Shown here in pieces: positions 7,160 to 22,117 of a stretch of 64,000 bases of DNA; within the stretch, counting starts at the first letter, position 1, and every line of letters starts with the position of its first letter. Below the pieces are notes generated by a model, which did not search any database, was not told the DNA's origin, and saw only the letters and a program-made list of their open reading frames with translations. The position numbers and the translations under genes are program-made. The DNA comes from an uncultured Roseburia sp. (GTDB lineage: Bacteria; Bacillota; Clostridia; Lachnospirales; Lachnospiraceae), in assembly GCA_945836255.1 (NCBI GenBank), contig CAMAKU010000002.1, positions 1 to 64,000 of the forward strand. Reading direction: 5' to 3'.

Positions 7160-8347
7160 ATGAGCGACGGCGTATTATCTCAAGAAGAAATCAATGCGCT
7201 TCTAAATGGTGGTATTTCAGATGCTACAGATGATGTGGTAGAGGAAGATGAACTGACACCGGATGAGGTTGACACCATAGGCGAGATCGCCAACATCAGT
7301 ATGGGAACAGCGGCGACCACGTTGTTTTCGCTGGTCAACAAAAAGGTGGATATCTCCACACCGGTGGTCTCGATGGGTGTTTGGGACGATATCGTAGACA
7401 AATACGAAAAGCCCTGCGTTCTGGTTCGTATCGCTTATACCAAAGGACTGAATGGAAGCAATATTTTAGTTTTGAAAGAAACGGACGTGAAAGTCATTAC
7501 CGATCTGATGTTGGGTGGTGACGGTTCTAATACCGATGGGGAGATTGGAGAACTCCATCTGAGTGCCATTAGTGAGGCGATGAATCAGATGATGGGGTCT
7601 TCGGCGACATCGATGTCATCCATGTTGAATCAGATGATCGATATTAGTCCACCATCTTCGGATTTAATTGATTTACAGGAATCGTCAGACGGTGGCGATA
7701 TTGAGACCTTCTTAAAAGGCAGATTTGTGAAAATCACATTCCGAATGTTGATTGGCGATCTGGTAGACAGCGAGATCATGCAGTTATATCCGATATCGCT
7801 TGCCAAAGAGATGTGCCGTAATATCATGGCTAACATGGAAAGTGATTCGGCATCGACCGTAGATGAGGATGCGTATTCCGCCAGTGCACAGCCGCAGCCG
7901 GAACCGCAACCGCAGCCGGAACCGCAGCCACAGCCGCAGCCGCAGCCGATGGCACAGGATATGGGAATGGCACAACAGCCATATGCGCAGCCGATGCAAC
8001 AACAGGTTCCGCCACAGCAGATGCCGTACATGCAACCCTATCCGCAACAACAGGTGAATGTACAGCCTGCCCAATTTCAACCTTTTGCTGGAAACTATCA
8101 AGCACCTTTCCAGCCGGAAAATATAGATCTGATTATGGACGTTCCTTTGGAGGTTACTGTTGAGTTAGGCAGGACCCACAAGTCTATCCAGGATATTCTG
8201 GATTTTGCACCGGGAACGATCATTGAACTCAACAAGATCGCCGGCGAACCCATTGATGTTCTGGTAAATGGAAAGTATGTCGCAAAAGGTGAGGTTGTTG
8301 TGATTGAAGAATCATTTGGTATTCGAATTACCGAAATAATGAAGTAA
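7160..8347 (+). CDS. fliY: Flagellar motor switch phosphatase FliY (CheC-like + FliN/SpoA domain)
   Basis: Two CheC-type E-x2-N motifs ('GEIANISMGTAATTLFSLVNKKVDISTP', 'ISEAMNQMMGSSATSMSSMLNQMIDISPP'), P/Q/E repeat linker, C-term SpoA 'MDVPLEVTVELGRTHKSIQDILDFAPGTIIELNKIAGEPIDVLVNGKYVAKGEVVVIEESFGIRITEI'. Confidence 0.93.
   Translation: MSDGVLSQEEINALLNGGISDATDDVVEEDELTPDEVDTIGEIANISMGTAATTLFSLVNKKVDISTPVVSMGVWDDIVDKYEKPCVLVRIAYTKGLNGSNILVLKETDVKVITDLMLGGDGSNTDGEIGELHLSAISEAMNQMMGSSATSMSSMLNQMIDISPPSSDLIDLQESSDGGDIETFLKGRFVKITFRMLIGDLVDSEIMQLYPISLAKEMCRNIMANMESDSASTVDEDAYSASAQPQPEPQPQPEPQPQPQPQPMAQDMGMAQQPYAQPMQQQVPPQQMPYMQPYPQQQVNVQPAQFQPFAGNYQAPFQPENIDLIMDVPLEVTVELGRTHKSIQDILDFAPGTIIELNKIAGEPIDVLVNGKYVAKGEVVVIEESFGIRITEIMK
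7890..7950 (+). repeat. In-frame CAGCCG/GAACCG hexanucleotide repeat encoding (PQPE)n linker in FliY
   Basis: cagccgcagccggaaccgcaaccgcagccggaaccgcagccacagccgcagccgcagccg. Confidence 0.85.
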
Positions 8348-8367: not shown

Positions 8368-8730
8368 ATGGCAAAGAATATTTTGATTAGTGATGATGCT
8401 GCTTTTATGAGAATGATGATCAAGGATATCCTGACAAAGAATGGATATAATGTGGTCGGTGAGGCAGAAAATGGCAAGGTCGCAGTGGATAAGTATTTGG
8501 AATTAAAGCCGGATCTTGTACTGATGGATATTACAATGCCTGAGATGGATGGAATTGAAGCGCTCAAAGCAATCCGTGCAAAGGATGCAAACGCATGTGT
8601 CATCATGTGTTCTGCAATGGGACAGCAGGCAATGGTTATCGAGGCAATCCAGTCTGGAGCAAAAGATTTCATTGTTAAGCCTTTCCAGGCAGAGCGTGTC
8701 CTGGAAGCAGTGAAGAAGGTTATTGGCTAA
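8368..8730 (+). CDS. cheY: Chemotaxis response regulator CheY
   Basis: Single receiver with canonical DD, 'LVLMDITMPEMDG' and 'DFIVKPFQ'. Confidence 0.93.
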   Translation: MAKNILISDDAAFMRMMIKDILTKNGYNVVGEAENGKVAVDKYLELKPDLVLMDITMPEMDGIEALKAIRAKDANACVIMCSAMGQQAMVIEAIQSGAKDFIVKPFQAERVLEAVKKVIG

Positions 8731-16540: not shown

Positions 16541-17293
16541 ATGAAAATGAGGATTAGCGAGTTATTACCGGGATGTAAAGTAGATATTCGGATTGTGCAA
16601 TGCATGGAGAACCAGTCGGTGGAACATGCCCAACAGGGGATTTATTATTCGACGATTTTTGATGTCTATGACGATAATACCTTGGAATTGATGATGCCGA
16701 TGGTGGGTGGCAAGTTACAGTTGCTGCGCAAACATATCCGCTATGAGTTTGTTTTTTCCACGGCAAATGGTTTATATAAAGCAGAGGGGACGATCACTGA
16801 CCATGTCAAAAAAAATCAGTTCTATCTTTTGAAAGTTGAACTGACCAGCGCTCTTGAAAAATATCAGCGCAGGCAATACTATCGAGTTGCCTGCATGATT
16901 CCCATGATTTTTATGGCATTGACGGAAGAGGCTGTGGAAGCAAAGACCGTGGATGACGTGAAAGAGTGTATGAAAAATAGCAGTGAAATGAAGGTGCGAG
17001 GGATTGGTACAATTCTGGACATCAGCGGTGGCGGCGCACGATTTGTGTCGACGAATTCACTGCAGGATGTGACGTATCTTCTGCTTGAGTTTCAATTGCA
17101 GCGGGAAGGCCGGGAGGAGGAACTGGATATGGATGTCATTGCCAAGATGATTCATTCCGAGCGCATGGAGGGAAGCGACAAATATATGCATCGCGTCCAG
17201 TTCTTTTTCAAGGATAACCATACAAAAGAACAATTGATTGGCTATGTGTTCGAGGAAGAACGCAGAATCAGAAAGAAGGAACAGGGAATATAA
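16541..17293 (+). CDS. PilZ-domain flagellar brake protein (YcgR family)
   Basis: YcgR N-domain followed by PilZ signature 'RRQYYRVACMIPMIF ... GIGTILDISGGGARFVS'. Confidence 0.88.
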   Translation: MKMRISELLPGCKVDIRIVQCMENQSVEHAQQGIYYSTIFDVYDDNTLELMMPMVGGKLQLLRKHIRYEFVFSTANGLYKAEGTITDHVKKNQFYLLKVELTSALEKYQRRQYYRVACMIPMIFMALTEEAVEAKTVDDVKECMKNSSEMKVRGIGTILDISGGGARFVSTNSLQDVTYLLLEFQLQREGREEELDMDVIAKMIHSERMEGSDKYMHRVQFFFKDNHTKEQLIGYVFEEERRIRKKEQGI

Positions 17294-18399
17294 TGCAAAA
17301 GGTGCTTGTTGTTGATAACTCTGCACTCATGAGAAGAAATTACTGTGATATAATAAACGCAGACAAAGACTTTCATGTAGTTGACATGAGCATAAATGGT
17401 GAAGATGCCTACAACAAAATACACAAAAATTTCTACGATGTTGTGATTCTGGGGATGACGTCGCCCAGAGTCGACGGTGTTGGTTTACTCAGGCAGTTGC
17501 AGGAGGAACAGATTGCGATTACAGTCATTCTGATTTCCACCACCTTGCCGGAAGACATGGAGCGGGTGAGACAAGCAATGTCGCTGGGGGCATATGATTA
17601 TGTCTGTCGTTTGACACGTTTCAACGGTGTGTCCGATGATTTTGCCCGGGATTTGTTGCAGTCAATGCGTTGTGCCATGGAAGGGAAACGCGCACCACAA
17701 CATACCAGCGAGGTGGCGGATCGTGTCAGCCGGCTGACACAGCGTACGATGGATACGCTGTCATCGGCGGATGCGCAACGGCCGGCAGTCAAAACCGGAT
17801 CGCCACGAAAAGTGTCCGGCAGAAAGCGTCTGATTGCGCTGGCGTGTTCCACTGGTGGTCCACAGGCATTGCAACTTATGATGCCGATGATTCCGGCGGA
17901 TATAGGAGTTCCCATTGTGTTAGTACAGCATATGCCGGCAGGCTTTACCGATGCTCTTGCAAGGCGATTAGATCAGACTTGTGCGGTTCATGTGAAAGAG
18001 GCAAAAGACCAGGATGTGCTGGAGCCGGGATGCGTTTATATTGCACCGGGTGGCAAGCATATGGAGATTAAGCAGAATGCGAACAAGGAAGCATATGTAA
18101 GCATCAATGACAAGCCGCCGATCAACAGCCTGAAGCCTTGTGCGGATGTGATGTATGAGTCGCTGATTCATTCCGATTATGCAGAGATTATCTGTGTTGT
18201 CCTGACGGGAATGGGGATGGATGGAACCAAAGGCATTACGGCTTTGTCAAAGCACAAGAAGATTTATGTAATTACAGAAAGTCAGGATACCTGTGTTGTC
18301 TATGGTATGCCCAAATCTATTGTGAATCATGGACTGGCAGATAAAACGGTTCCTATTAACCAGATTGCAGATGCAATTATTCAGAAATTGGGGGATTAG
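17293..18399 (+). CDS. cheB: Chemotaxis protein-glutamate methylesterase CheB with degenerate receiver domain
   Basis: Methylesterase triad present ('ACSTGGPQAL', 'QHMPAGFT', 'GMGMDGTKG'). Receiver domain reads 'DNSALMRR' and 'VVILGMTSPRVDG'. Confidence 0.94.
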   Translation: MQKVLVVDNSALMRRNYCDIINADKDFHVVDMSINGEDAYNKIHKNFYDVVILGMTSPRVDGVGLLRQLQEEQIAITVILISTTLPEDMERVRQAMSLGAYDYVCRLTRFNGVSDDFARDLLQSMRCAMEGKRAPQHTSEVADRVSRLTQRTMDTLSSADAQRPAVKTGSPRKVSGRKRLIALACSTGGPQALQLMMPMIPADIGVPIVLVQHMPAGFTDALARRLDQTCAVHVKEAKDQDVLEPGCVYIAPGGKHMEIKQNANKEAYVSINDKPPINSLKPCADVMYESLIHSDYAEIICVVLTGMGMDGTKGITALSKHKKIYVITESQDTCVVYGMPKSIVNHGLADKTVPINQIADAIIQKLGD

Positions 18400-18402
18400 A
18401 AA

Positions 18403-20502
18403 ATGGATGTAAGTCAATATCTCGACATTTTTATCGACGAAACCAATGGTCACATTCAGACATTGAATGATAATATTATGATTCTTGAAAAAGAACCGGA
18501 GAATAAGGATGTGATCAATGAGATTTTCCGTGCGGCGCACTCACTTAAGGGTATGGCTGGCACCATGGGCTTTAAGAAGATGCAGCGCTTGACCCATGAC
18601 ATGGAAAATGTATTTCAGGAAGTGCGAAATGATAATATCAAGGTGAACAGTAATTTGATCGATATTCTGTTTAATTGCCTGGATGCCATTGAGGAATATC
18701 TTGAGACGGTTAAGGCGACTTCCAACGAAGGCGATAATGGCAATGAAGCATTGATTCAGCAGTTGAATGATTATCTCAGTTCTGGTGGCAGTGCGACGCA
18801 GACCACAGGTGCCGCAGAGGCGGACAAGCCAGAAGTATCGGACGCATCACAGGAGAGTTCTGACGGTAAGACCTATCTTACGATTGATGTGGATGATGTC
18901 TCTTGCAACAAGATCAAAGAAGCGCAGGAAGCAGGCTTACATGTCTATGGAATGACGGTACATATTCAGAAAGAGTGTCTCCTGAAAGCAGCCAGAGCAT
19001 TTCTGGTGTTTAAAGCGATTGAGGATTTTGGCGAGATTCTGGTGTACAATCCCAGTTCCCAGGATATTGAAGACGAGAAGTTTGAATTTGAGTTTAGTCT
19101 GGTGATTGCTTCTGAGCATGATTTGCAGCCTATGGTAGATGCGGTGAAGGCTGTATCAGAGATTGAGGGCGTTGATGCCGGTGAGGTATCTTACGAGCAT
19201 TATCTGGAGAAGACTGACCTTCCGGAAGAGTCGCAGCAAGAGGAAGAGACGAAGCCTGCTGCTAAGAGTTCTGCAGAGCCGGCAAAGACATCTGCCAGCA
19301 AGACCGCATCCAACAATAAGAATGCGAACAACAAGCCGGTAACCGCGAGAACGGTCCGTGTCGATATTGAGAAACTGGATGCCTTGATGAATCAGGTCAG
19401 TGAGTTGATCATTGCAAAGAACAGTCTGGTTGCTATCAGCGACTCAGATCAGAGCGGTGACTACAATACTCAGACCTTCCATGATCAGATCGAATATCTG
19501 GAGAGAATTACAACCAATCTCCATGAGTCTGTTATGAAGGTACGAATGGTTCCCATTGAGAGCGTTGTTAATAAGTTCCCGAGAATGATTCGAGACCTGA
19601 GCCGTAAATTAAATAAGCCTATGGAATTGTATATGTCCGGTGAAGAGACCGAACTTGACCGTACCGTTGTGGATCAGATTGGTGATCCGCTGCAGCATTT
19701 GCTTCGTAATTCTGCCGATCACGGCATTGAATCTCCGGAGGAGAGACGTAAATGCGGCAAGCCGGAGACAGGAAGTATCATTCTCAATGCATTCCAGGAA
19801 GGCAATAATGTCATCATTGAGGTAAAGGATGACGGTGCCGGTATCGATACCGAACGCGTTAAGGCAAAGGCAGTGGAACGTGGACTGGTAACGGAGGAAC
19901 AGGCAGAGAATCTTTCCCAGAAGGAGATCATTGATTTCCTGTTTATGCCGAGTTTTTCTATGGCAAAGAAGATTACTGATATCTCAGGACGTGGCGTTGG
20001 ACTGGATGTAGTAAAGTCTAACATCGAGGCATTAGGCGGCGATGTTACCGTTAAGAGTGTTAAGGGAACCGGAACGACGTTTATTGTTCGCTTGCCGTTG
20101 ACGCTTGCTATTATTCAGGCATTGATGGTAGAAGTGCGTGACGAAAAATATGCCATTGCGCTGGGATCTATTCAGAATATTGAGAGTATTCCGGTGGGTG
20201 ATATTAAGTATGTACAGGCGGAAGAAGTCATCCACTTAAGAGGTCTGGTGATTCCGCTGATTCGTCTGGATCAGTTGCTTGACTCCGCACCTAAGGAGGA
20301 GGAACCGGAGACGTTGACTGTGGTCATTGTCAAGAAGGGCGACAGTTATGCAGGACTAGTTGTTGACAATTTGATCGGTCAGCAGGAAATCGTTATTAAG
20401 TCTCTTGGTAAGTGCATCGATAACAATAAGATCATCAGTGGTGCGACCATTCTTGGTGATGGTGAAGTGGCCCTGATTCTCGATGTGAATGCAATCTTTT
20501 AG
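18403..20502 (+). CDS. cheA: Chemotaxis histidine kinase CheA
   Basis: HPt 'IFRAAHSLKGMAGTMGF', 'HLLRNSADHGIESPEER', 'DDGAGID', 'GRGVGLDVVKSNIEALGG', CheW-like C-term. Confidence 0.97.
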   Translation: MDVSQYLDIFIDETNGHIQTLNDNIMILEKEPENKDVINEIFRAAHSLKGMAGTMGFKKMQRLTHDMENVFQEVRNDNIKVNSNLIDILFNCLDAIEEYLETVKATSNEGDNGNEALIQQLNDYLSSGGSATQTTGAAEADKPEVSDASQESSDGKTYLTIDVDDVSCNKIKEAQEAGLHVYGMTVHIQKECLLKAARAFLVFKAIEDFGEILVYNPSSQDIEDEKFEFEFSLVIASEHDLQPMVDAVKAVSEIEGVDAGEVSYEHYLEKTDLPEESQQEEETKPAAKSSAEPAKTSASKTASNNKNANNKPVTARTVRVDIEKLDALMNQVSELIIAKNSLVAISDSDQSGDYNTQTFHDQIEYLERITTNLHESVMKVRMVPIESVVNKFPRMIRDLSRKLNKPMELYMSGEETELDRTVVDQIGDPLQHLLRNSADHGIESPEERRKCGKPETGSIILNAFQEGNNVIIEVKDDGAGIDTERVKAKAVERGLVTEEQAENLSQKEIIDFLFMPSFSMAKKITDISGRGVGLDVVKSNIEALGGDVTVKSVKGTGTTFIVRLPLTLAIIQALMVEVRDEKYAIALGSIQNIESIPVGDIKYVQAEEVIHLRGLVIPLIRLDQLLDSAPKEEEPETLTVVIVKKGDSYAGLVVDNLIGQQEIVIKSLGKCIDNNKIISGATILGDGEVALILDVNAIF

Positions 20503-20991: not shown

Positions 20992-21004
20992 TTTGGAGGA
21001 CGAT

Positions 21005-21619
21005 ATGATCAGTTTACAGGAAGTAAATGAAAAGTATCTCGATGTATTGACCGAGATTGGTAATATCGGTGCCGGCAACGCTACTACAGCGATTGCTGAT
21101 ATGTTAGGACTTCGTATTGATATGAACGTGCCACAGGTGCAATTCCTTCCGGTGGAGGAGATTGGCACTTCCATTGGTGCGGAAGATGAAGTGATTGTCG
21201 GCATTATGCTAGGTGTAGGCAGTGATATTGACGGAAGTATGATGTTTTTGATGGATATGAATTCGGCCCATCATATTATTAACCGTTTGATGATGCGCCC
21301 GGATGACTATATGGAAGATTTTGACGAGATGGATCTTTCTGCTGTCAAGGAGGTCGGCAATATTATTGCAGGCTCTTATTTGTCAGCATTATCCGGTTTG
21401 ACAGGCTTGACCATTACGCCAACGGTGCCGTTTGTGGCAGTGGATATGGCGGCTGCAATCCTTAGCGTACCGGCGATTCAGTTTGGTATGTTTGGTGACA
21501 ATGCATTGATGATTAAGACAGAGTTTAGTGACGAAATGAAGATTAACGGCTATTTTATTCTTATGCCGGAAGAAGAGTCATATGAGAAAATCTTATCTTC
21601 GCTAGGTTTGCCGGTTTAG
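21005..21619 (+). CDS. cheC: CheY-P phosphatase CheC
   Basis: Two phosphatase motifs: 'LTEIGNIGAGNATTAIADML', 'AVKEVGNIIAGSYLSALSGLTG'. ATG 21005 follows ggagg; ORF track start 20993 is TTG. Confidence 0.94.
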   Translation: MISLQEVNEKYLDVLTEIGNIGAGNATTAIADMLGLRIDMNVPQVQFLPVEEIGTSIGAEDEVIVGIMLGVGSDIDGSMMFLMDMNSAHHIINRLMMRPDDYMEDFDEMDLSAVKEVGNIIAGSYLSALSGLTGLTITPTVPFVAVDMAAAILSVPAIQFGMFGDNALMIKTEFSDEMKINGYFILMPEEESYEKILSSLGLPV

Positions 21620-21622
21620 GGG

Positions 21623-22117
21623 ATGTATATGGGACAAGTAATAAAGGTTGGTATGGCAGATCTTAATATCTGCAAGGCACCGGATGTTCTGACGACGATT
21701 GGTCTGGGATCGTGTATCGGAATTGCATTGTATGATCCGGTAACGAAAATCAGTGGCCTTGCACATATTATGCTACCAGATAGTACACAAATCAGAAACA
21801 ATTCTAATATTGCCAAATTTGCCGACACAGGAATACAGAAGTTATATGATGATATGATCAAAGCCGGTGCCAATCGCACGAAGATTGTCGCCAAGATAGC
21901 CGGCGGTGCCAAGATGTTTGAATTGAGCAACGCCGGAACGCAGGGGATTAATATCGGAGAAAAAAATGCAATCGCTTCCAGAGAGAAGTTGAAATCACTG
22001 GGGATTCCGCTGATTGCCGAAGATACCGGTCTTAATTTTGGTCGGACAGTGGAATTATACAGCGAGACAGGACAATTTTTGATCAAGGCTGTGGGTAAGC
22101 AGGAAAAGTATATCTAG
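21623..22117 (+). CDS. cheD: Chemoreceptor glutamine deamidase CheD
   Basis: 'GLGSCIGIALYDPVTKISGLAHIMLPDS' (Cys/His active site). Confidence 0.94.
   Translation: MYMGQVIKVGMADLNICKAPDVLTTIGLGSCIGIALYDPVTKISGLAHIMLPDSTQIRNNSNIAKFADTGIQKLYDDMIKAGANRTKIVAKIAGGAKMFELSNAGTQGINIGEKNAIASREKLKSLGIPLIAEDTGLNFGRTVELYSETGQFLIKAVGKQEKYI

Follow-up and report, generated by a model that had tools for sequence, protein, structure and literature searches.

A CheB methylesterase with a pseudo-receiver domain in an uncultured Roseburia and its relatives

Introduction

The role of phosphorylation feedback on the chemotaxis methylesterase CheB is described as a long-standing open question, with a role in precise adaptation ruled out (PMC5809149). 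With CheB-D56E or a receiver-less CheB, Escherichia coli is reported in the same paper to keep precise adaptation while its activity becomes bimodal. In Bacillus subtilis, phosphorylation is reported to be needed for CheB activity and adaptation also uses CheC and CheD; a modelling study found it implausible that selective methylation is regulated through CheB phosphorylation (PMC340952). The CheB of Campylobacter jejuni has been described as having no response-regulator domain (PMC3879368). Pseudo-receivers are an established class, making up about 6% of the receivers in a representative bacterial set, and a pseudo-receiver whose kinase is encoded next door is called a rare setting (PMC12632262). 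The DD2 and D/K positions are reported to be commonly lost in pseudo-receivers and aspartate-less receivers (PMC12632262, PMC4395418). CheB does not occur in the searched text of either of these two papers, where an entry in a supplementary table is possible. Literature searches on pseudo-receiver CheB and on CheB in Pseudobutyrivibrio returned no description of a CheB that kept its receiver while being stripped of the phosphosite.

Here we describe the CheB encoded in a stretch of 64,000 nucleotides from an uncultured Roseburia sp. (Lachnospiraceae; GenBank assembly GCA_945836255.1, contig CAMAKU010000002.1, positions 1 to 64,000 of the forward strand), which is referred to below as the window.

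Domains and phosphorylation residues of the window CheB

The CheB of the window was encoded by an open reading frame at 17293-18399 on the forward strand (368 aa). It scored 200.8 bits with PF01339 (cutoff 24), 57.8 bits with PF00072 (cutoff 30.2) and 323.6 bits with the NCBIfam CheB model NF001965 (cutoff 293). These scores, the N-terminal position of the PF00072 domain and the che-operon context identified the protein as a member of the CheB family. Residue columns were assigned by aligning it with 160 CheB proteins and the CheY of the window, which gave the following parts:

17293-17670, forward strand: receiver-like (pseudo-receiver) domain, residues 1-126 (PF00072; predicted (beta-alpha)5 fold)
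17314-17319, forward strand: acidic pair columns, Asp8 (gat) retained and Asn9 (aac) in place of the second Asp (alignments, codons)
17452-17454, forward strand: phospho-acceptor column, Gly54 (ggg) in place of Asp (alignment)
17551-17556, forward strand: Glu87-Asp88, which begins alpha4 and marks the 25-member clade described below (alignment)
17608-17610, forward strand: invariant-Lys column, Arg106 (cgt) (alignment)
17617-17619, forward strand: Arg109, a basic residue of the beta5-alpha5 loop that marks the same clade (alignment)
17671-17825, forward strand: interdomain linker, partly disordered, with a predicted helix at residues 138-157 (AF2 model)
17833-18378, forward strand: methylesterase catalytic domain PF01339 (Pfam; structure match to 1chd and 3sft)
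17848-17850, 17929-17931 and 18220-18222, forward strand: catalytic residues Ser186, His213 and Asp310 (alignment)
17863-17865, forward strand: Gln191 immediately past STGGP, a clade marker in the catalytic domain where K/R is found elsewhere (alignment)

A sequence-only reading of this DNA had proposed that the phospho-acceptor Asp is replaced by Gly, that the acidic pair reads DN instead of DD, that the Lys region is altered and that the methylesterase Ser/His/Asp residues are intact. The 160-CheB alignment bore out all four points: Gly54 occupied the acceptor column, Asp8-Asn9 the columns of the metal-binding acidic pair and Arg106 the column of the invariant, phosphate-coordinating Lys, while Ser186, His213 and Asp310 were present and invariant across the clade alignment. 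The Thr/Ser column held Ser82, as in canonical receivers. Three of the five phosphorylation residues were missing, which by residue content places the domain among pseudo-receivers as defined in PMC12632262, and the lack of an Asp in the acceptor position makes it an aspartate-less receiver (ALR) as well. A substitute acceptor Asp was sought at the end of beta3 and none was found in the alignment. Nor is there any other acidic residue at the beta3 end: Asp49 opens beta3 in almost every CheB, and Asp61 follows seven residues after Gly54, in the loop. Judged by its residues, the window CheB is a methylesterase carrying a pseudo-receiver, and it almost certainly does without phosphorylation of the Asp54 type.

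We considered a sequencing or assembly error at codon 54, since the genome is a draft of 170 contigs with a completeness of 83% and a single transition separates ggg from gag (Glu), the codon found in two congeners. However, the domain also differs independently at Asn9 and Arg106, and degeneracy extends to every related genome, which renders such an error extremely improbable.

Distribution among related CheB proteins

The CheB sample consisted of 160 distinct proteins from related and named genomes, to which 94 further orthologues of the family were then added. Outside a clade of 25 members, 216 of 218 distinct orthologues had all five phosphorylation residues, and the column of Lys106 held K in all 218 aligned rows. 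The later batch of family orthologues was intact throughout (94/94). With so few exceptions outside the clade, the pseudo-receiver state is more than a chance occurrence. Residue 54 or 106 was changed in 19 rows, and a tree built from the methylesterase domain only placed 18 of them within this one 25-row clade, which had a support of 100/100. The pseudo-receiver CheB is carried by a group of bacteria from the gut and rumen.

The clade comprised three subclades. Subclade C (seven rows) was formed by the window genus and two Lachnospiraceae drafts (L076, L081). All seven members lacked at least one of the five residues and had a broken acidic pair. At position 54 the window had G, three congeners had E, and the fourth congener and both drafts had D; position 106 was R in five rows, M in one and K in one. 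Subclade A (12 rows) kept the acidic pair; position 54 was N in ten members and E in two, and position 106 was R in ten, H in one and K in one, i.e. the Lys was lost in 11/12. Subclade B consisted of Pseudobutyrivibrio (six rows), with all five residues present. The question of whether the Asp-to-Gly exchange is clade-wide, raised by the sequence-only reading, thus has a divided answer: the pseudo-receiver state was clade-wide, but glycine itself was found in the window genome only.

The three subclade C relatives with Asp54 are not ALRs, and they might retain a slow or metal-independent phosphorylation. Glu was the natural residue at position 54 in five clade members. We considered a conserved D-to-E phosphomimic as a general explanation and regard it as unlikely, because position 54 was not fixed as Glu but held N, E, D or G depending on the clade member. 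Phosphomimic models of this kind are reported to have been disproved in some cases (PMC12632262).

Some deviating CheBs were observed elsewhere. Of the two exceptions among the 218 orthologues outside the clade, one (L028 1495-2571, reverse strand, genome G041) had Asn54 with the other phosphorylation residues intact, a lone case that is possibly recent. In the other (L042 197-1381, forward strand, genome G027) the acidic pair was broken, reading Ser-His, and the Thr/Ser column held Phe. In three genomes from another family of the order (G101, G119, G130), some CheB matches lay in open frames of about 205-215 aa, which are probably methylesterase domains without any receiver.

Two routes of loss and shared, probably earlier changes

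The phosphosite was apparently lost at least twice. In subclade A the acceptor was lost with the acidic pair intact, while in subclade C the pair was broken and three members still had Asp54, which indicates independent loss. Pseudobutyrivibrio grouped with subclade C in the methylesterase tree as well as in a tree of seven operon genes. A grouping of A and C without Pseudobutyrivibrio was not rejected by the concatenated operon tree (p-AU 0.156), so the case for independent loss rests mainly on the differing lost residues and the methylesterase tree.

The clade was further marked by residues common to all three subclades, Pseudobutyrivibrio with its intact phosphosite included. Glu87-Asp88 was exactly ED in 22 of the 25 members and in three proteins outside. 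Position 109 was R in 19, H in three and K in one of the 25, and R in 10/218 outside; Arg109 and Glu87-Asp88 never occurred together outside the clade. Leu57 was present in 18/25 members (Ser in the window) and in 1/218 outside. Two further markers lay in the catalytic domain: Gln191, next to the STGG of the active site, was found in 24/25 members and in none of the 218 others, and Val206 in 25/25 and 8/218, respectively. From this distribution we infer that remodelling of a region of the receiver and of a patch close to the active site preceded the loss of the phosphosite. Our guess is that the clade-specific residues form a contact between the domains.

Predicted fold and selection on the receiver

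In the AlphaFold2 (AF2) model, the strands and helices of the window receiver (E2-7 to H115-129) mostly had pLDDT values of 89-97, falling to about 73-78 around beta4-alpha4 and beta5-alpha5. The pTM was 0.60 for the window CheB and 0.57 for a canonical control from Pseudobutyrivibrio (L077), the domain arrangement being fixed in neither. Compared with the full-length structures 1a2o and 6ymz, the window model had an rmsd of about 13 Å and a TM score of 0.53-0.61, while the catalytic-domain crystal structures 1chd and 3sft matched it with TM scores (target) of 0.90-0.94. Because AF2 leaves the domain arrangement unfixed, the step of a remodelled interface rests on the clade-specific residues.

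The receiver dN/dS was 0.07-0.19 in close pairs, with dS near saturation. Among the 22 receiver positions with the highest conservation, 15 were each retained in 13 or more of the 19 pseudo-receivers, most notably those of the alpha1 motif SALMR...CDII. Both results argue that the receiver domain is kept, and at the sequence level it is under purifying selection. At a catalytic-domain identity of 0.55-0.65, the mean receiver identity was 0.42 in subclade A versus 0.55 in canonical pairs, indicating faster evolution than in canonical receivers.

This faster divergence, together with larger damage in single members (L047, L178), would fit a receiver that is simply decaying toward loss, comparable to the receiver-less Campylobacter CheB. 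The low dN/dS argues against decay, bearing in mind that dS is near saturation, as do the reading frames, which were open in all members, the fold predicted with high confidence and the 15 of 22 key positions kept in most members. We consider decay quite unlikely.

Chemotaxis genes in the operon and in the genome

The chemotaxis partners encoded in the window were:

8368-8730, forward strand: CheY with a canonical receiver (Pfam, alignment)
18403-20502, forward strand: CheA, with the Hpt/P1 domain and its phospho-His motif, the response-regulator-binding P2 domain, the kinase domain and the CheW domain all present (Pfam; P1/P2 alignment)
20993-22117, forward strand: CheC and CheD, a CheY-P-dependent adaptation module (PF04509, PF03975)

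The canonical state of CheY, likewise proposed in the sequence-only reading, was confirmed by Pfam and the receiver alignment. The CheC/CheD/CheY-P branch is typical of Firmicutes. In the loci compared, those with a canonical receiver and those with a pseudo-receiver shared the gene order flhF-flhG-pilZ-cheB-cheA-cheW-cheC-cheD-sigD. The stop codon of the PilZ/YcgR-like gene (16541-17293) overlaps the start codon of cheB at 17293 (taATG), which suggests that the two genes are translationally coupled. A FliY-like gene at 7160-8347 has a Gln/Pro-rich repeat linker (QPQPEPQPQP...), as seen by eye in the list of open reading frames.

In nearly all subclade A genomes, and in G454 and G197 of subclade C, the single full-length CheB was the one with the pseudo-receiver. 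One of the genomes (G226) had an additional CheB match, a short fragment of 48 positions. The single-CheB pseudo-receiver genomes, among them G362 and G370 with a completeness of 99-100%, carry one CheR; none was found in the G038 draft. Where counted, the pseudo-receiver genomes encoded 6-22 methyl-accepting chemotaxis proteins (MCPs). A sole CheB accompanied by one CheR and 6-22 MCPs makes a lost or redundant pathway unlikely. In the sister subclade A, phospho-controlled demethylation appears to have disappeared from the cell altogether.

All five genomes of the window genus encoded a second CheB with intact residues, adjoining a second CheR. In the window genome it was located on another contig (C7) in a second chemosensory cluster, cheR-cheB-cheY-cheA-cheW, and its receiver was canonical. 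This cluster (L067 6253-13732, forward strand) also contained a PAS-type histidine kinase and a receiver protein whose C-terminal half resembles an HD-GYP domain by eye; an MCP gene lay just downstream (C7:14409-14876). Since the genome also encodes this canonical CheB, which could supply phospho-regulated demethylation in the window genome and its genus, phospho-controlled demethylation would be lost from the CheB of the flagellar operon, not necessarily from the whole cell.

The constant presence of a second, intact CheB in the genus led us to consider a division of labour, in which the canonical CheB performs phospho-regulated demethylation and the flagellar CheB has been relaxed as redundant. 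However, the canonical protein sits in a cluster with its own cheY, cheA and cheW, and nearly all sister-subclade genomes, as well as G454 and G197, have the pseudo-receiver CheB as their sole full-length CheB. Such a division of labour is therefore improbable.

Proposed regulation of the pseudo-receiver CheB

The proposal of the sequence-only reading that Asp phosphorylation does not control this CheB is strongly supported at the sequence level: the site is gone, the loss is clade-wide and occurred by two routes, and the catalytic domain, the P1/P2 domains of CheA and CheY are conserved. Constitutive activity and regulation between proteins, the two modes which that reading had suggested, are both candidates. 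Phospho-control of the window CheB has very likely been lost. The reading as a whole, in which CheB is ungated by CheA phosphorylation and its activity is fixed by the domain interface, appears probable from the sequence comparisons.

CheA would no longer be able to switch the window CheB through phosphorylation, and a fixed contact of the receiver with the catalytic domain, itself remodelled, would determine how active CheB is. Adaptation would then rest on substrate selection, with CheB preferring active receptors as in site-less E. coli CheB mutants, and on the CheC/CheD/CheY-P branch. The receiver would be kept as a structural or docking element and would no longer act as a phosphate switch.

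The window CheB may be phosphorylated at a different residue or be regulated by a partner. The main rival to fixed activity is a new protein input: the pseudo-receiver might have acquired a phosphate-independent signal, whereby binding of CheY-P, CheC/CheD, the P2 domain of CheA or a receptor tail opens or closes CheB. The retention of the receiver under purifying selection is consistent with such an input, as are the alpha1 face (S10 A11 L12 M13 R14 ... C18 D19 I20 I21), almost invariant despite the loss of phosphorylation, and the fixation in the clade, intact-site Pseudobutyrivibrio included, of L57, E87-D88, R109, Q191 and V206. The same alpha1 motif is, however, conserved in canonical CheBs and hence need not mark a new partner, and when catalytic-domain identity is the same, receivers diverge faster in the clade than among canonical CheBs. 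We regard a new input as rather unlikely. Adaptation feedback that reaches CheB by protein contact, e.g. with CheY-P or CheC/CheD at the remodelled alpha4/beta5 side, and so replaces phosphotransfer is unlikely as well. If it were true, the surface changes shared with the intact-site Pseudobutyrivibrio would be the first step of the rewiring. Between fixed activity and a new input we lean slightly towards fixed activity, and the simplest reading is that the clade runs CheB without phospho-feedback.

Comparison with known systems

Pseudo-receivers were known already, and a CheB retaining its receiver without the phosphosite is new among the literature searched. In natural lineages that carry flagellar genes, a complete che operon and numerous receptors, the phosphosite has been given up, apparently on two occasions. 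With the intact Pseudobutyrivibrio, the pseudo-receiver lineages form matched natural pairs in which the worth of the feedback and the compensation for its loss can be studied. The clade also lets one ask what role a retained pseudo-receiver has while the kinase is still encoded next door. A cautionary point is that annotation as CheB does not guarantee phospho-control.

The window CheB shares with the CheBs of E. coli/Salmonella (1a2o) and Pectobacterium (6ymz) the order receiver-linker-methylesterase, the Ser/His/Asp residues, the receiver fold and the alpha1 motif SALMR...IIN, but is without their phosphorylatable Asp, acidic pair and Lys. It resembles the C. jejuni CheB in having no control via phosphorylation of its own receiver. 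In C. jejuni the whole domain is absent, whereas in the window CheB the domain is kept, predicted to be folded and under selection, and its chemistry is gone. Among pseudo-receivers, it stands out as part of an enzyme whose kinase gene adjoins its own. Like the laboratory variants CheB-D56E and CheBc of E. coli, which are site-deficient yet catalytically active, clade members have a CheB with a deficient site, and the Glu of the former variant is the natural residue 54 in some of them. The E. coli mutants, however, are engineered single changes, whereas the loss in this clade is natural, repeated and spread over several residues.
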